Shown piece after piece: positions 4,149 through 10,893 of a stretch of DNA of 44,249 nt. How positions within the stretch are numbered: position 1 is the stretch's first letter; every line of letters starts with the position of its first letter. The stretch is taken from the NCBI GenBank assembly GCA_016935015.1, contig JAFGRT010000147.1, forward strand, positions 1-44,249, in the 5' to 3' direction. The notes under the pieces are model-generated. The model saw nothing but the letters and a program-made list of their open reading frames with translations, did no database searches and was not told the origin of the DNA. Origin of the DNA: Acidobacteriota bacterium. GTDB taxonomy: Bacteria; Acidobacteriota; JAAYUB01. The position numbers and the translations under genes were made by a program.

Positions 4149-4757
4149 CTATTGCCATCCCGGATAGCAGACCAGTGCGCCGGACACGATATCACACCGT
4201 TTCAGATTGTAGGGCAGCTCGAAGGGCTCGCCGGGAACCATGGGGGGGCGTTGGCGATGACCAACCTGTCCGGCCAGGGATTCCACCAGTAATCCGGGGA
4301 TGGGAATTCCACGGATCCGCAGGGATTCTACCTCGTAGCGACCCCGGTAATTGTCCGACTGGAAAAGGATGGTGGCTTCCACCTGGTGATCGCCGCTGAA
4401 AATCCACATAAAGGCGTTGGCCAGGAAAGAATCCAGTTTCAGATTGGCTTTTTTCAGGTTGGCGATGGCCCGGAACGTCATGCGGTTTTCCTGCAACCGG
4501 ACCCGAACGTCACGGGCGGCAGAGTTGAAGATGTCATCCTGGTTCTCCACCAGATACGCGTTAAGCTCGTCGTTGCTGATCACCACCGGCTGGCGGGCCT
4601 GTCTTTCCTGCAGCTCGAAGAGCTTTTGCTGGCATTCCCTGGCCAGGGCCAGGCGGCTGGCGTCGCCGGCTGACGCATGATCATCGGCGGCCCGGGTGAG
4701 CAGACCAGGGGCCGCAATCAGAATCAGGGACAATATCACGGGGTTGAGTTTTCTCAT
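4149..4757 (-). CDS. Exported protein of unknown function
   Basis: This 202-residue protein begins with a short basic stretch, a hydrophobic core and a likely signal-peptidase site near residue 23 (LLTRA, then ADD), so it is predicted to be exported. The mature part is mixed alpha/beta and has no catalytic motif I recognise. A short pattern, VVISNDELNAYL, followed by alternating polar and hydrophobic strands, hints at a lipid-binding or periplasmic beta fold, but that is only an impression. Its ATG overlaps the stop of the giant ATPase gene in an ATGA arrangement, so it is the last gene of that operon and is probably translationally coupled to it. A functional link to the ATPase or to the upstream peptidoglycan synthase is inferred from position alone. 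Confidence 0.75.
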   Translation of the reverse strand: MRKLNPVILSLILIAAPGLLTRAADDHASAGDASRLALARECQQKLFELQERQARQPVVISNDELNAYLVENQDDIFNSAARDVRVRLQENRMTFRAIANLKKANLKLDSFLANAFMWIFSGDHQVEATILFQSDNYRGRYEVESLRIRGIPIPGLLVESLAGQVGHRQRPPMVPGEPFELPYNLKRCDIVSGALVCYPGWQ

Positions 4758-7700
4758 GCTTCCTTATCCGAGATCATGAAGTACATTTCCTTGGATTCCT
4801 CAATTTCCTTGAAGAATCGCGCCAGGCTGTGCATGAGATCCGAACGGGCCACGATGGTGCCGGGATGATCGCCGTACACATTCTGGTGGGCGCATACTTT
4901 GACTCTTCTTTTCAGGATGAAGTTCACGAGCTTGATGGAATCGGTGCTGATGACATAATCAAAGTTGCCGTTGATCAGATTGATAACCTGCCGCGCCGTC
5001 TCATCTTCCAGTGAAGGGATCTTCTGCATTTCCCGGATGATCAGCTTTTTGTAATTGGCGAAAAACGACTGATAGTCGGACAGGGCCTGCCGGGCCGTCT
5101 GCAGGATCCGTTGCACCAGATGACCCGGCGTCTGGTACGAGTTGAGGCGGAATCCGCATTCGCAAACGGGGGTCTGTTGCAGGAGATCCTCCACAGGATA
5201 AGGGCATTCCTTACGGTGAAGCAAACTGAGCAGGTGGTTGAGTATGATCAGGTGATAATGATCCACATACAGCAGCTTGGAGAGATAAGGCAGATTTTTC
5301 CACCAGCGCTGTTGGATCAGGGTGCCCAGTTCGCTGTCGGCCCACAGTTCCTGCAGCTGCCGGTCATGTCTTTCCCGGTAATACTGGCTATAGCGGGCCT
5401 TGAAATCGTTGAAATTGTTCTGAAACCGTTCGCGCCGGGCCGGGTCGATGAGGCGCGCTGGTCGCTCGAAGGATGAGGATAGATCATAACGCAGGTTTTC
5501 AATGTTCTGGTCGGAGGTTTTTTCGGAAATCAGGATGTATTTCTTGGCGTCAATAAAAAACCGGTTCCAGCGGAGATAATCGCGAATATTGTCAATTTCT
5601 TGCAATACGGAGCGGAAGGCCTCCAGATTGTTGGAAAAGGCCCGGGCCAACAGGGACAACCCCTCCTCCAGTCCGTATTCGCCAGAGCAGATATTTTCCA
5701 CGATATTCAGGATGGCACTGGCGTTCCGGTAACAGGACTGGAGTTCACGCCACAGCTGGGTGGTCACGAGATCGTTGGCCAGTTGTTCGAGCAAGGTGTC
5801 AAAGGATTGCTGCTTCTCCTCGCCCAGCCATTCCTGAAGCAACCCACGTAACTGGCGTCGGGTCTGAGTGAAATTGGTGGTGGTGGCCTCCAGGTCCTGC
5901 GAGCAGAGCGTAAAGCCCCATTGCAGCAGTTCCGGCAGGGGGAGGGTCTCGCCCTCCATGGCCTGAACCGAGTCGAAGAAATTCAGGTCGATTTCGCCGG
6001 ACAAACTCATCTGGTTGACCACTTCCACTTCGGCACGATCGCTTTTGAAAATTTTGATCTTGCCGGCGGCGACCAGGGAAAAGAGAACGATGTCGATGAC
6101 CGCCGGTTGAAAACCGTAGGGTGATTGGGTGAGGACATTTCGAAAAAAGGAGAGCGGGAAAACTGTTTTGGGATAGGAAGTGACCAAGCAGATGATTTCC
6201 GAAATGTAACCCAGTTCCAGGAAGGAATCCCGTTCCGGCTGGAAAGACCAATTGCCGTCGACATGGGCCGATAGTAAGCCCAGCGGTTTCATGATGCTCT
6301 GAATGCTTGGCCGTTCATCCTCATCGGCCGGAGCGCCGTTTAAGAGATAGCGAACGATAATGCCGCGCCGGCCCTCCAAATCAGGGGGTGCCGTGAATTC
6401 CGGGTGGGCGGGAAACATTTCGCTGAACGTCCGCTGGAGATGGGCGCTGATGGTCGAAGACAGCAAGTCGTCCGCCGAACAGCCTGAAAGGGAGATGGTC
6501 TCTCCCCGGAGGATGAGGGCACCTTCTTCAAAATACTTTCGTCTCAGGAGTTCTGTCAGGAAACGTTCCTCCAGTTCGCGGCGCTGGAGATATTCGTCAT
6601 CCAGATCGTTTTCGGAGAATATGGCCCGATGCTCATCCGCCAGGAGCAAGGTGGTCTGTGATAACCTCGCCAGTTCTTCCTCGTTGAACTGCACCGGCGC
6701 GACAATGACCAGGAAAGGATAATTTTTGGACAGGGTGACGTAGGTCTCCAGCAGATCCGGGGCGGAGAAGGGGGAAAGCACCATGATCTGCCAGTCGAAA
6801 TATTCGTTTCGCGAATGGGGGCCGAATCCGGAAACGGTGCCGGGCAGTGGCGGTGGCGGGACCACCTGGGCCAGTTTTTTCATCCTGTCCAGATTGCCCG
6901 ATTCCAGGATCACCTGGAACATGGGGCGGGTGTGACGCTCGGTGGGGCGCAGGTGAAGCTGGTCATAATAATCCGCCCAGCACGACAACCCGTGGCGAAT
7001 GGTGCCCCGCCAGCTGATCTCCAGCGGCTGGACGGAAATGGGCGCCTTGATATTCTCTTCGTTGATCTGCAGGTCCGGCAAGAGCCGGCAGGTTGTCTGG
7101 AACACCAACCGCGATCGTTTTTCGTCCAGCTTCTGCTCTTTGGCGGCGAGGTCTTTCAACACATGTTCGAGAGACGTATATGTTGCCGAGACGATCTGGT
7201 AGACATTCTGGCCACCCATCTCCTGTTTGCGGATAGACTCGGGGGCATTGGCGACCATGTAGTCCAGAATGGCCTGGACATCCTCGTAAGCCACGGCCCG
7301 GCCCTGATATTCGGACAGAAGCAGGGCGTTGATGACGTTTTCAACGGAAGGAGTGTATTCCTCGGTAATGCTCAGCAAAAATACGGCCTTCAGGATCATC
7401 CTCGCCAGAAGGCGCTGGGCCACGGGCATGGTGTCGATGGTTTCTTTCTGGATGGTCTGGAACGATTCCAGGGCAATGTGCAGATCGTCGATTTTGCGGA
7501 ATTCATGCTGCAAGGTGTCGAAGATCAGGTCGATGGTGGCCAGGGCCGTACAACGGTAGGTGAGGATCTTGTTGGCCGTGGAATAAATGAATGACAGCAG
7601 GGAAAAGTTCTTGATGAACCGGTGCAGGTAGAAGCTGATCTGGAAAGTGATGGGGTGGATGGGGTACACATCCTGAAACAGGGCCGGTTCGGGATTGAAA

Positions 7701-8584
7701 TACGGCTGGTGGGAGGTCAGGTGCTGGTGAATTTTTTGCAGGCCTTCCCGCTGGTGCGGCGTTTTGATGAGGATGTTGCGATTGATGAGTTCGAGGATGT
7801 TCTGCTTGGTGATGGTCAGCGTCAGGATATGATTGGGTAGCTGATATTCCACGATCTTGTTGTGCAGCGATTGGTAGCGATTGGTGTAGTCGGGCGGGGC
7901 CAGCAGGTGCTGGAAAAACGTGCTGACGAGATACAGCGGGTAGTCAGGGGTGGCCAGTGCCAGGGTCAGTAAGAATTCGAGATCGGCCATTACCCGGGTG
8001 AGATTGCGATAGGCCAGGATCTTTTCCGAAATATCGTCCAGCAGGATCAGCAGCTCGAAGCCGGCCGGGATGAGATCGGTGATGAATTTGATCTGCTCGT
8101 CGGAATCGCTCAGTTCCAGCCAGTCTTCCAGGCTGGGAACCTCTGTCGTGGTAAAGCCGCCGAGGGCGGCGCTGAAGCGATGATAGAAGATCTCCCGGAA
8201 ATTTTCCTCCTGATTGGGAAAGCACTGGATGTCCACGATGAGGAGTTTCTTCTTGCGGATGAAGGACAGCTTCTCCCGAAGAGCCGGATCCAGTTTGTCC
8301 GACAGGCCGGGTGAGGCCAGGGCTTCGCGCAACACGGCCAGGGAATGGGTCTTGCCGACACCCCGGTCCCCGCAAAGGAATATGGCCCGGCGGTCCGAGC
8401 CTGCCGGCTTGGCCAGTTCGGCGAACAGTATTTTGAAATTGGCGACGGATTCGTTGGTAAATAGATAGGACTGGATGATGGTTTCCGGCGACAGCAGGTC
8501 GACGGTGTAGACACCGCTGTATGGCTTCAGGGAGATGAAATCGCGTATCTTGGAGTTGCTGATCATATCCGTTGCGGTTGTCAC
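4754..8584 (-). CDS. Giant P-loop ATPase, BrxC/PglY/DUF6079-like
   Basis: This protein of about 1,276 residues has an N-terminal P-loop module. Walker A is GDRGVGKTH (Lys78) and a Walker B-like LILLDDISEK lies near 179-188. A YPIHP motif at 307-311 is followed by FSLLSFIY. A YPxHP element just before an aromatic 'LFSF' stretch is characteristic of the large DUF499, DUF6079 and BrxC/PglY ATPases, and I base the family guess on that. The remaining 900 residues are mostly helical with no enzyme motif I know. Near 1127-1142 a Cys and a CECGF pair could form a small zinc site. I chose GTG 8584 because a G-rich stretch precedes it and a TTG alternative at 8632 overlaps the upstream gene. It sits 29 bases after the PBP1B gene and overlaps the exported-protein gene. 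No methylase, PglZ or nuclease is nearby. The existence of the gene is certain; its function is unknown. Confidence 0.85.
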   Translation of the reverse strand: MTTATDMISNSKIRDFISLKPYSGVYTVDLLSPETIIQSYLFTNESVANFKILFAELAKPAGSDRRAIFLCGDRGVGKTHSLAVLREALASPGLSDKLDPALREKLSFIRKKKLLIVDIQCFPNQEENFREIFYHRFSAALGGFTTTEVPSLEDWLELSDSDEQIKFITDLIPAGFELLILLDDISEKILAYRNLTRVMADLEFLLTLALATPDYPLYLVSTFFQHLLAPPDYTNRYQSLHNKIVEYQLPNHILTLTITKQNILELINRNILIKTPHQREGLQKIHQHLTSHQPYFNPEPALFQDVYPIHPITFQISFYLHRFIKNFSLLSFIYSTANKILTYRCTALATIDLIFDTLQHEFRKIDDLHIALESFQTIQKETIDTMPVAQRLLARMILKAVFLLSITEEYTPSVENVINALLLSEYQGRAVAYEDVQAILDYMVANAPESIRKQEMGGQNVYQIVSATYTSLEHVLKDLAAKEQKLDEKRSRLVFQTTCRLLPDLQINEENIKAPISVQPLEISWRGTIRHGLSCWADYYDQLHLRPTERHTRPMFQVILESGNLDRMKKLAQVVPPPPLPGTVSGFGPHSRNEYFDWQIMVLSPFSAPDLLETYVTLSKNYPFLVIVAPVQFNEEELARLSQTTLLLADEHRAIFSENDLDDEYLQRRELEERFLTELLRRKYFEEGALILRGETISLSGCSADDLLSSTISAHLQRTFSEMFPAHPEFTAPPDLEGRRGIIVRYLLNGAPADEDERPSIQSIMKPLGLLSAHVDGNWSFQPERDSFLELGYISEIICLVTSYPKTVFPLSFFRNVLTQSPYGFQPAVIDIVLFSLVAAGKIKIFKSDRAEVEVVNQMSLSGEIDLNFFDSVQAMEGETLPLPELLQWGFTLCSQDLEATTTNFTQTRRQLRGLLQEWLGEEKQQSFDTLLEQLANDLVTTQLWRELQSCYRNASAILNIVENICSGEYGLEEGLSLLARAFSNNLEAFRSVLQEIDNIRDYLRWNRFFIDAKKYILISEKTSDQNIENLRYDLSSSFERPARLIDPARRERFQNNFNDFKARYSQYYRERHDRQLQELWADSELGTLIQQRWWKNLPYLSKLLYVDHYHLIILNHLLSLLHRKECPYPVEDLLQQTPVCECGFRLNSYQTPGHLVQRILQTARQALSDYQSFFANYKKLIIREMQKIPSLEDETARQVINLINGNFDYVISTDSIKLVNFILKRRVKVCAHQNVYGDHPGTIVARSDLMHSLARFFKEIEESKEMYFMISDKEA

Positions 8585-8613: not shown

Positions 8614-10893
8614 TCAGTGATGGGTCTGGCAAGATCTATGGGGTTCTGTGCCTGTAAAAAAATACAGCTCTTCCGTTTCCGGACAGGCGGAGTCCGCGAG
8701 CTCGCCCGACCGGAGGCAGACCCGACAGCGGGTCAACCCCGCCGGCGGGCGCGGCTGCAGCGGAACAACGGGGTAAACCTGCTGCGCGCGCTCCAGGAAT
8801 TCGGCAAAAACCAGTAAGGCGCTTTCACCGCCGCTGAGGGGGAAATCCCGGTTCTGGTCGTAGCCGACCCAGATACAGCAGATGAGGTTGTCACACAACC
8901 CCACGAACCAGCCGTCGTGGGCCGTGCCGGTCTTGCCGGCCAACGTCAGTGAGGGGGCGAGGTCGCGGAGTCGCCGGGCCGTTCCCCGGTTCACCACGGC
9001 TTGCATCATGTCAAGTGTGATGAAGGCGGCCTGCGGACTGCTCAGGGGCCGGGTGGTGGACGCGGGTATACCGGCTGGCAAGGAAAGAGGAGACCAGGGG
9101 TGGGACGGTTTCAGGCGCCCTTCGTTGAGAAAGATGGTGTAAGCTGTGGCGATTTCCAGCGGCGTTACGTCCAGGGTGCCGAGGGCGACGGACGGATACG
9201 GTGTGGCCGGCCGGGCGAAGGTGAACCGGTCGAGGTACCGGGCGACGGACGGAAAGCCGACCCGCTCGGCCAGTTGAACCGTGGCCGAGTTGAGGGAGCG
9301 GGCCAGGGCCGTTTCCATGATCACCGGCCCGGCATACCGGTTGCGGTAATTGTGGGGCCGATAAGAGCGCCGGCCGTAGCGGATGGTCACCGGACGATCG
9401 TCCACCACGGTGGCGGCGGTAAGCCCCAGATCCGGATTCTCCGCCCCTTTCTCGATCAGAAACATGTAGATCAGGGGTTTAAGTATCGAACCGGCTTGAC
9501 GATGCGCAAAGACCGCCCGATTGAACTGGCTGACCCGGTAGTCTCGACCGCCGGTCATGGCCAGAATCTGGCCCGTAGCCGGCGCGAGGACCACCACGGC
9601 CAGTTGAAGATCAGCCGCCGGTTCGGCGGGGTAGTCCCGAGCCAGTTGGTGGACAATCTGCCCGTAACCCGCCGTCATCGCCTCTTCGGCCGCCAGCTGA
9701 AGCTCCAGATTCAGGGAGGAGTGCACGTCGTCCGTGGGCCGGATTGCGCCGGTCGCCAGCAGGCGTCGAATGTCGGTGGCCAGGTAGTCCAGAAAATACG
9801 GCGCCGGGGGCAGATCGTCGAATACGTCGGCCTGGGGCTGGGGCAGTGGAGCGGCGGCCGCGATCATGGCCTCATCGGGCAGGATATAGCCGGCACTCTC
9901 CATGGCCTCCAGGATAAGATTTCGTCGCTCCAGGGCCAGCTGGGGATGCCGAAAGGGGTGCAGCGGGTTGGGGGAGCGGATCAGGCCGGCCAGCAGGGCG
10001 CATTCGGGCAGGTTCAGATTGCGGATGTCCTTGCCGCAGTAAATGGCGGCGGCCTGGCCCAGTCCGTAGATGGACAAAGAGGCGGTCTGGCCCAGGTAGA
10101 CCTGGTTGGCATAAAGCTCGAACAATTCCTTTTTGCCGAGACGGGTTTCCAGGATGAGAGAAATAAAGGCTTCCTCGAGTTTGCGGCGAAGCGTCTTCTC
10201 CGGCGTGAGGAAGAGATTCTTGGCCAGCTGCTGGGTGATGGTGCTGCCGCCCTCGACGACCTGTTCAGCCTGCAGGTTGCGGACAAAAGAGCGGATGATT
10301 CCCGGCAGATCCAGCCCGGGATGATCGAAGAAACGCTGATCCTCGGCGGCCAAAACGGCATACACCAGATTGGGGGGCAGCTGGTCATACAACACCTGGA
10401 TGCGGCTTTCCCCAGACCGCTGGGCCGAGAGGCGGGCCGGGCGGATGGCGAACCGGGCCAGGGGCTGACCGGTCTGCAGCTCGGTGACGGCGGCCACCTG
10501 ATCATCATCGAACCGTATCCGGCCCCGCAACGGCGTGCCGTGGGGCCTTGGACTCCAGTCAAAATCGTTGACCACCAGGATGGTCTGCTGGTCGGGGATG
10601 GGTTTGTAGGCCGGCGGATCTTCCAGGAAGCTCGACAGCTTGTACCCTCGTCGTTCCAGCGTTTGGACCAGGTCGTCGTAACTCATGGCCTGACCGGGAA
10701 ACAGGATGGAGGGCGCGCTATAAATGGAAGGGAAAACTTCCCACGGGCGTTCGCGGATGGCCCGGTCGATACGTTGCGAGTAGTGGCGATAAAAGAAGAT
10801 GAAGACACCACCACTGACCAGCAGAACGCAGAGGAGCAAGGCCAGCGTGGATTTCAGCAGCCGACCGGTATGGATGCGAATAATGACTTTCAT
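8614..10893 (-). CDS. mrcB: Bifunctional class A penicillin-binding protein, PBP1B-type
   Basis: This 759-residue inner-membrane peptidoglycan synthase polymerises lipid II and cross-links the stem peptides. It has a short cytoplasmic tail and one signal-anchor helix (about residues 12-35), then a UB2H-like segment. The GT51 domain has catalytic Glu184 in EDQRFF and the EGGSTITQQLAKN motif. The transpeptidase domain has SILK (Ser469), SLNSAT and KTGT (Lys654), so all active-site motifs are present. The C-terminus carries four cysteines in CRVC and two later positions, which could form disulfides in the periplasm. The length and the pre-GT51 segment favour PBP1B over PBP1A. It lies between tadA (127-base gap) and the giant ATPase (29-base gap) on the same strand. 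Confidence 0.93.
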   Translation of the reverse strand: MKVIIRIHTGRLLKSTLALLLCVLLVSGGVFIFFYRHYSQRIDRAIRERPWEVFPSIYSAPSILFPGQAMSYDDLVQTLERRGYKLSSFLEDPPAYKPIPDQQTILVVNDFDWSPRPHGTPLRGRIRFDDDQVAAVTELQTGQPLARFAIRPARLSAQRSGESRIQVLYDQLPPNLVYAVLAAEDQRFFDHPGLDLPGIIRSFVRNLQAEQVVEGGSTITQQLAKNLFLTPEKTLRRKLEEAFISLILETRLGKKELFELYANQVYLGQTASLSIYGLGQAAAIYCGKDIRNLNLPECALLAGLIRSPNPLHPFRHPQLALERRNLILEAMESAGYILPDEAMIAAAAPLPQPQADVFDDLPPAPYFLDYLATDIRRLLATGAIRPTDDVHSSLNLELQLAAEEAMTAGYGQIVHQLARDYPAEPAADLQLAVVVLAPATGQILAMTGGRDYRVSQFNRAVFAHRQAGSILKPLIYMFLIEKGAENPDLGLTAATVVDDRPVTIRYGRRSYRPHNYRNRYAGPVIMETALARSLNSATVQLAERVGFPSVARYLDRFTFARPATPYPSVALGTLDVTPLEIATAYTIFLNEGRLKPSHPWSPLSLPAGIPASTTRPLSSPQAAFITLDMMQAVVNRGTARRLRDLAPSLTLAGKTGTAHDGWFVGLCDNLICCIWVGYDQNRDFPLSGGESALLVFAEFLERAQQVYPVVPLQPRPPAGLTRCRVCLRSGELADSACPETEELYFFTGTEPHRSCQTHH

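Follow-up and report, generated by a model that had tools for sequence, protein, structure and literature searches.

The window analysed here, 44,249 nucleotides of contig JAFGRT010000147.1 from an Acidobacteriota bacterium (assembly GCA_016935015.1), encodes a large AAA+ (ATPases associated with diverse cellular activities) protein related to the BrxC/DUF6079 ATPases of bacteriophage exclusion (BREX) systems, which lies between genes for the peptidoglycan synthase PBP1B and a small exported protein. On balance, our comparisons favour the reading that this ATPase is a vertically inherited, BrxC-derived cytoplasmic partner of PBP1B in the family of the window genome (f1), in family f28 of another class and probably in the sister family f2, with its C-terminal domain docking as an adaptor. 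The link to PBP1B rests on genomics, from which we infer direct binding, and the C-terminal coiled-coil/zinc-knuckle domain is best read as the essential part. More tentatively, a lineage of defence ATPases may have been domesticated into a cytoplasmic regulator of class A penicillin-binding proteins (PBPs), the minimal form of which would be an ATPase-free C-terminal adaptor of ~370 residues. BrxC/DUF6079 proteins have been described only from phage defence (PMC12839542, PMC13326643), and a large, vertically inherited non-defence clade would place the family in cell biology; defence-gene finders that employ DUF6079 or BrxC models may also be counting housekeeping genes as defence.

A BrxC relative outside BREX systems

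The first-pass annotation, made from the sequence alone, had described a BrxC/PglY/DUF6079-like ATPase, and Pfam, PADLOC and hhalign agree on this assignment. The Pfam DUF6079 model (PF19557) matched the window ATPase with 76.4 bits (E=1.2e-21), above its gathering cut-off of 23 bits, the PADLOC BrxC-PglY model matched both N-terminally (8.6e-16) and C-terminally (1.9e-13), and an hhalign comparison between a profile of 15 orphan relatives and a BREX-3 DUF6079 profile gave E=2.3e-38 over 1,122 columns. Because of these Pfam and PADLOC matches and the extent of the hhalign alignment, the relationship is judged to be real and full-length, though distant (~17% identity). The NCBIfam BrxC equivalog NF033441 returned 41.3 bits, under its 400-bit cut-off, and a phmmer search against the PDB yielded no match.

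The predicted protein of about 1,276 residues, with Walker A Lys78, proved to be a genuine open reading frame (ORF) with orthologues free of internal stops. A GGACGGGGG sequence lies just upstream of GTG 8584, the position of which matches the starts of the orthologues, and this GTG is most likely the start; residues are nevertheless numbered here from ATG 8566, so that Lys78 becomes K72. Both the Walker A and Walker B features of AAA+ proteins were found, as were the LLDD, YPIHP and FSLLSFIY motifs first noticed by eye, with G66, G69, G71, K72, D177, P302, H304, P305, F321 and F326 invariant in 15 distant homologues. The possible C-terminal zinc site was likewise borne out, in that its C-x13-C-x-C-x-F pattern (C1121, C1135, C1137 and F1139) is almost invariant among the same 15 homologues.

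For every BrxC ATPase, the best-scoring profile is reported to be DUF6079 (PMC12839542), and BrxC itself exhibits ATP-dependent DNA binding and multimerization, with a coiled-coil/dimerization domain at its C-terminal end (PMC13326643). Homology between the BREX-3 BrxC/DUF6079 proteins and the window ATPase is near full-length; both are about 1,240-1,280 amino acids (aa) and have in common the order of Walker A, [YF]P[IV]HP and a C-terminal cysteine knuckle before [GN]F. However, the window ATPase scores 76 bits against DUF6079 where a BREX-3 member scores 1,673, its knuckle reads CxC rather than CPxC, and it is chromosomal, vertically inherited and without BREX partners. The BrxC of a BREX-6 system (Pseudanabaena plasmid, WP_281009666.1) aligns through its AAA+ region (hhalign probability 91%, E=1.1e-6), but over only ~250 columns, and falls in a separate clade of the tree. 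The BREX-related/Hma DUF499 ATPases (PMC12839542) have the same N-terminal AAA+ domain followed by winged helix-turn-helix (wHTH), alpha+beta and wHTH segments; they end in a wHTH and an RNA recognition motif-like domain, whereas the window ATPase, in which Pfam found no DUF499 match, ends in a helical coiled coil with a cysteine knuckle.

The absence of a PglZ or methylase partner, noted at first reading, was upheld. No PglZ (PF08665) was detected in the window genome or the five nearest genomes (G000-G005), the one match in the set being in G010, and no methylase was seen on reading the ORFs flanking the ATPase, though no dedicated methylase hidden Markov model search was made. Genes beside the orthologues encode MutS, PBP1B and exported proteins. 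No relative of the window ATPase was found in 72,556 plasmid records, nor did any viral contig match. In contrast, a BREX-3 DUF6079 protein of the same phylum has relatives on plasmids (37-50% identity), and the two that were checked both lie in annotated BREX-3 operons. The true BREX-3 genes of the phylum have methylase/helicase/BrxF-type neighbours. The window ATPase is not part of a BREX system.

Orthologues of the ATPase occur in all six genomes of the order, with 48% identity within the family and 37% and 35% in the sister family. Within genus g2, the ratio of non-synonymous to synonymous substitution rates (dN/dS) was 0.06-0.10 for the ATPase, 0.10-0.17 for PBP1B and 0.14-0.20 for the exported gene, at similar dS, such that purifying selection on the ATPase is as strong as that on PBP1B. 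The gene is inherited vertically, and the mobile or patchy distribution of BREX-type genes was not observed.

Linkage to PBP1B and reduction to a C-terminal stub

A survey of 396 Acidobacteriota genomes retrieved matches in 57, of which ~46 were orphans (families f1, f2, f21, f28, f32, f69 and f77) when sorted by tree and context; the remainder were either BREX-3-like or further members of DUF6079. In the tree, the orphans group in a single clade, separate from both BREX-3 and BREX-6, with a Shimodaira-Hasegawa-like approximate likelihood ratio test (SH-aLRT) value of 100. Among 97 genomes of Myxococcota, no full-length relatives were identified.

The PBP1B, ATPase and exported genes constitute a same-strand unit in all four f1 genomes. 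In f28, every homologue detected (nine genomes) sits on the PBP1B strand and 3' of that gene, at a distance of 10-253 bp in eight genomes and 2.3 kb in one. PBP1B thus travels with the ATPase, and the link spans classes; as it is the sole sense-strand neighbour common to f1 and f28, the association is not merely that of a conserved block. The PBP1B call is supported by transglycosylase, transpeptidase and UB2H domains, and the PBP1B cytoplasmic tails are short and basic (at locus L014, an upstream start makes the PBP1B ORF too long at the N-terminus).

The f28 homologues would provide a natural experiment, in that a single locus, always next to this one wall enzyme, has the ATPase in whole or degenerate form, has only its tail, or has lost it altogether. 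Behind PBP1B, G187 encodes a protein of 1,040 aa with Walker A intact, G195 one of 815 aa in which the AAA region is degenerate, G202 and G257 proteins of 587 and 575 aa, and G112, G210, G273, G281 and G329 the C-terminal domain only (366-429 aa). The 366-aa stub alone matches DUF6079 positions 927-1121 (E=7.7e-7, above the gathering score), and a profile of the stubs could be aligned with the C-terminal end of the BREX-3 proteins (E=3.4e-9). Between stub pairs, synonymous sites are saturated (proportion of synonymous differences, pS, 0.64-0.84) at amino acid identities of 29-51%; the stubs are intact ORFs, 21 residues are invariant across stubs and full-length proteins, and the cysteine knuckle is invariant. 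Owing to this saturation, the conservation of the protein and the invariant knuckle, the stubs look functional and under selection rather than decaying, and retention of the tail after loss of the ATPase part suggests that it serves the wall enzyme.

Several observations weigh against a role as a PBP1B partner. In the sister family f2, the ATPase and exported genes occur with no adjacent PBP1B, most orphans (f21, f32, f77 and f69) adjoin M48 peptidase or DUF2520 genes instead, and UB2H-containing PBP1B is widespread without the ATPase. At loci among L088-L094, L120-L134, L019 and L082, the orphan ATPase gene of f21 and f32 is oriented divergently to one encoding an M48 peptidase, and in f21, f77 and f69 a DUF2520 gene comes after it. 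The middle segment of the f1 ATPase is missing in f28, and the grouping of f28 with f1/f2 is moderately supported (SH-aLRT 91 in one analysis and 85/82 in another); if they were not sisters, the PBP1B association would have arisen or persisted on two occasions, leaving the functional reading no weaker. Furthermore, three f28 genomes keep a PBP1B of the linked type but have cleanly lost the gene, the next gene being the convergent aminotransferase gene found beyond the stub in other f28 genomes, and the gene is therefore dispensable there. Another three f28 genomes have neither linked-type PBP1B nor stub, one of these being 76% and one 81% complete.

A candidate cytoplasmic adaptor and its alternatives

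The C-terminal 421 residues of the ATPase were modelled by AlphaFold2 as long helices plus the knuckle (predicted local distance difference test, pLDDT, 85), and Foldseek returned no PDB fold match at E<=0.001. Poxvirus anti-apoptotic (Bcl-2-like) chains had matched the helical C-terminus in a profile search (E=3e-4); this was taken as compositional because the AlphaFold/Foldseek analysis showed no fold match. Neither the ATPase nor the stubs carry a signal peptide on reading of the sequences, and the most hydrophobic window of the ATPase falls inside the protein, at residue 822.

In the mechanism we propose, the C-terminal domain, as the counterpart of the dimerizing end of BrxC, would act as a dimeric adaptor of PBP1B, docking either on its membrane segment or on its cytoplasmic tail, which is short and basic. 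Once docked, it may place or switch the synthase, as GpsB does for Gram-positive PBPs, whilst the AAA+ domain would add ATP-dependent assembly and could be lost; the exported protein of f1 and f2 may influence this process from the periplasmic side. The precedent, GpsB, is a cytosolic adaptor of Gram-positive PBPs (PMC6335420); in both cases, a cytosolic coiled-coil protein would serve class A PBPs whose cytoplasmic tails are short and basic. It is a working analogy only: there is no homology between GpsB and the window ATPase, and they differ in size, AAA+ domain and phylum. The best known regulators of E. coli PBP1B, namely LpoB, CpoB and FtsN, act from the periplasm, and binding of the tail to PBP1B would represent a cytoplasmic control route over a Gram-negative-type class A PBP. 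LpoB and CpoB (PMC6220978, PMC4458516) partner a UB2H-type PBP1B from the periplasm, unlike the window ATPase, which lacks a signal peptide; the window's exported protein is well positioned for such a role, but no LpoB-like fold was among its listed matches.

The model of the exported protein (pLDDT 84) bears a weak resemblance to YceB of E. coli and to TULIP lipid-binding proteins, with a best E of 0.024 and a probability of 0.84. Matches to JetD, ribosomal L10 and GMP_PMI were rejected as weak. An exported gene (28% identity) also lies directly 3' of the ATPase in f2, so that the gene travels with the ATPase in all four f1 genomes and in the sister family. The suggestion that this protein is the working partner of the ATPase is thus supported as to linkage, but its centrality is not, since relatives of the family, which has no Pfam model, occur in other contexts without the ATPase in 18 of 60 related genomes. 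In f2 (L017:9192-9971 and L018:1348-2157), the gene directly 5' of the ATPase encodes another exported protein, of 259-269 aa and without a Pfam family.

Amongst the alternatives to a PBP1B adaptor, the one that survives best, though we consider it rather unlikely, is a housekeeping, DNA-linked AAA+ protein that retains from BrxC an ATP-dependent, DNA-binding assembly and ties growth of the wall to the state of the chromosome or cell cycle, with adjacency to PBP1B reflecting co-regulation and not binding. The full-length homology suggests that the BrxC domains remain in f1, and the other orphans, adjoining mreBCD-mrdA, lptE, DUF2520 or M48 genes, are consistent with a wider envelope or cell-cycle theme. 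Nonetheless, the f28 stubs are still found behind PBP1B without the AAA+ and middle regions, and a DNA role is hence not the common denominator in that branch.

The first-pass annotation had left the choice between a cell-envelope and a stand-alone defence ATPase; the former is favoured and the latter is not supported. A BREX-derived protein still able to sense or block phage in the absence of PglZ and a methylase, the exported protein serving as effector or sensor, would accord with the intact AAA+ motifs of the window protein and with the membership of all characterised BrxC/DUF6079 proteins in BREX or related systems (PMC12839542, PMC13326643). Such a role is improbable given the vertical, syntenic inheritance across the order (dN/dS 0.06-0.10), the lack of plasmid or viral-contig relatives, the housekeeping neighbours in all orphan groups and the repeated loss of the AAA+ domain whilst the tail stays beside PBP1B, and given that the true BREX-3 genes of the phylum do have defence-type neighbours and plasmid relatives. 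That the gene is a relic, captured from BREX long ago behind PBP1B and now decaying, would fit the size series and the complete absence in three genomes, but is very improbable in view of the intact stub ORFs with their 21 residues shared invariantly with full-length proteins, the constraint on non-synonymous sites in stubs with saturated synonymous sites, and the dN/dS of the full-length f1 gene.

Gene organisation and related loci

The 29-base distance between the end of PBP1B (8614) and the ATPase start, and the coupling to the exported gene, in which the ATPase stop codon and the start codon of that gene share an ATGA, were both confirmed.

Table 1. Positions of the PBP1B, ATPase and exported genes and of ATPase features in the window.
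Feature	Position	Strand	Details
PBP1B, bifunctional class A PBP	8614..10893	(-)	759 aa; first gene of unit; transglycosylase, transpeptidase, UB2H
BrxC/DUF6079-type AAA+ ATPase gene	4754..8584	(-)	1,276 aa from GTG 8584; 1,270 aa from ATG 8566
Walker A GDRGVGKTH (G66-DRGVGK72-T)	8348..8371	(-)	K72 from ATG, K78 from GTG
Walker B-like LLILLDDISE (D177, D178)	8024..8053	(-)	D177 invariant in 15 homologues
YPIHP motif, residues 301-305	7652..7666	(-)	BREX-3 BrxC counterpart [YF]PVHP
Zinc-knuckle-like C1121-x13-C-x-C-G-F	5150..5206	(-)	near-invariant across homologues
C-terminal helical/coiled-coil domain, residues 880-1270	4757..5929	(-)	portion retained as stand-alone stub behind PBP1B in f28
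Exported 202-aa protein	4149..4757	(-)	ATGA overlap with ATPase; no Pfam family

Several further loci were recorded in the survey. A shorter paralogue of the orphan ATPase, of 1,025 aa (L096:2-8144; G218, f69), is encoded immediately ahead of mreB-mreC-mreD-PBP2, in the same orientation, and in G095 (f32) the orphan ATPase gene abuts lptE (L083:6222-10540); both placements count in favour of the proposed PBP1B partnership. The BREX-3-like DUF6079 loci L100, L101, L112-L116 and L118, in families f41, f44 and f46, offer a defence contrast. Very large DUF6079-related proteins of 2,053 and 1,769 aa are encoded in other Acidobacteriota (L109:8098-14259 and L111:125-5434). A further DUF6079-like group comprises L022:4165-8502 (1,445 aa) and L117:1-3608 (1,202 aa, truncated where its contig ends), with a divergent neighbour of 322 aa common to both families; the L022 member adjoins hypF.
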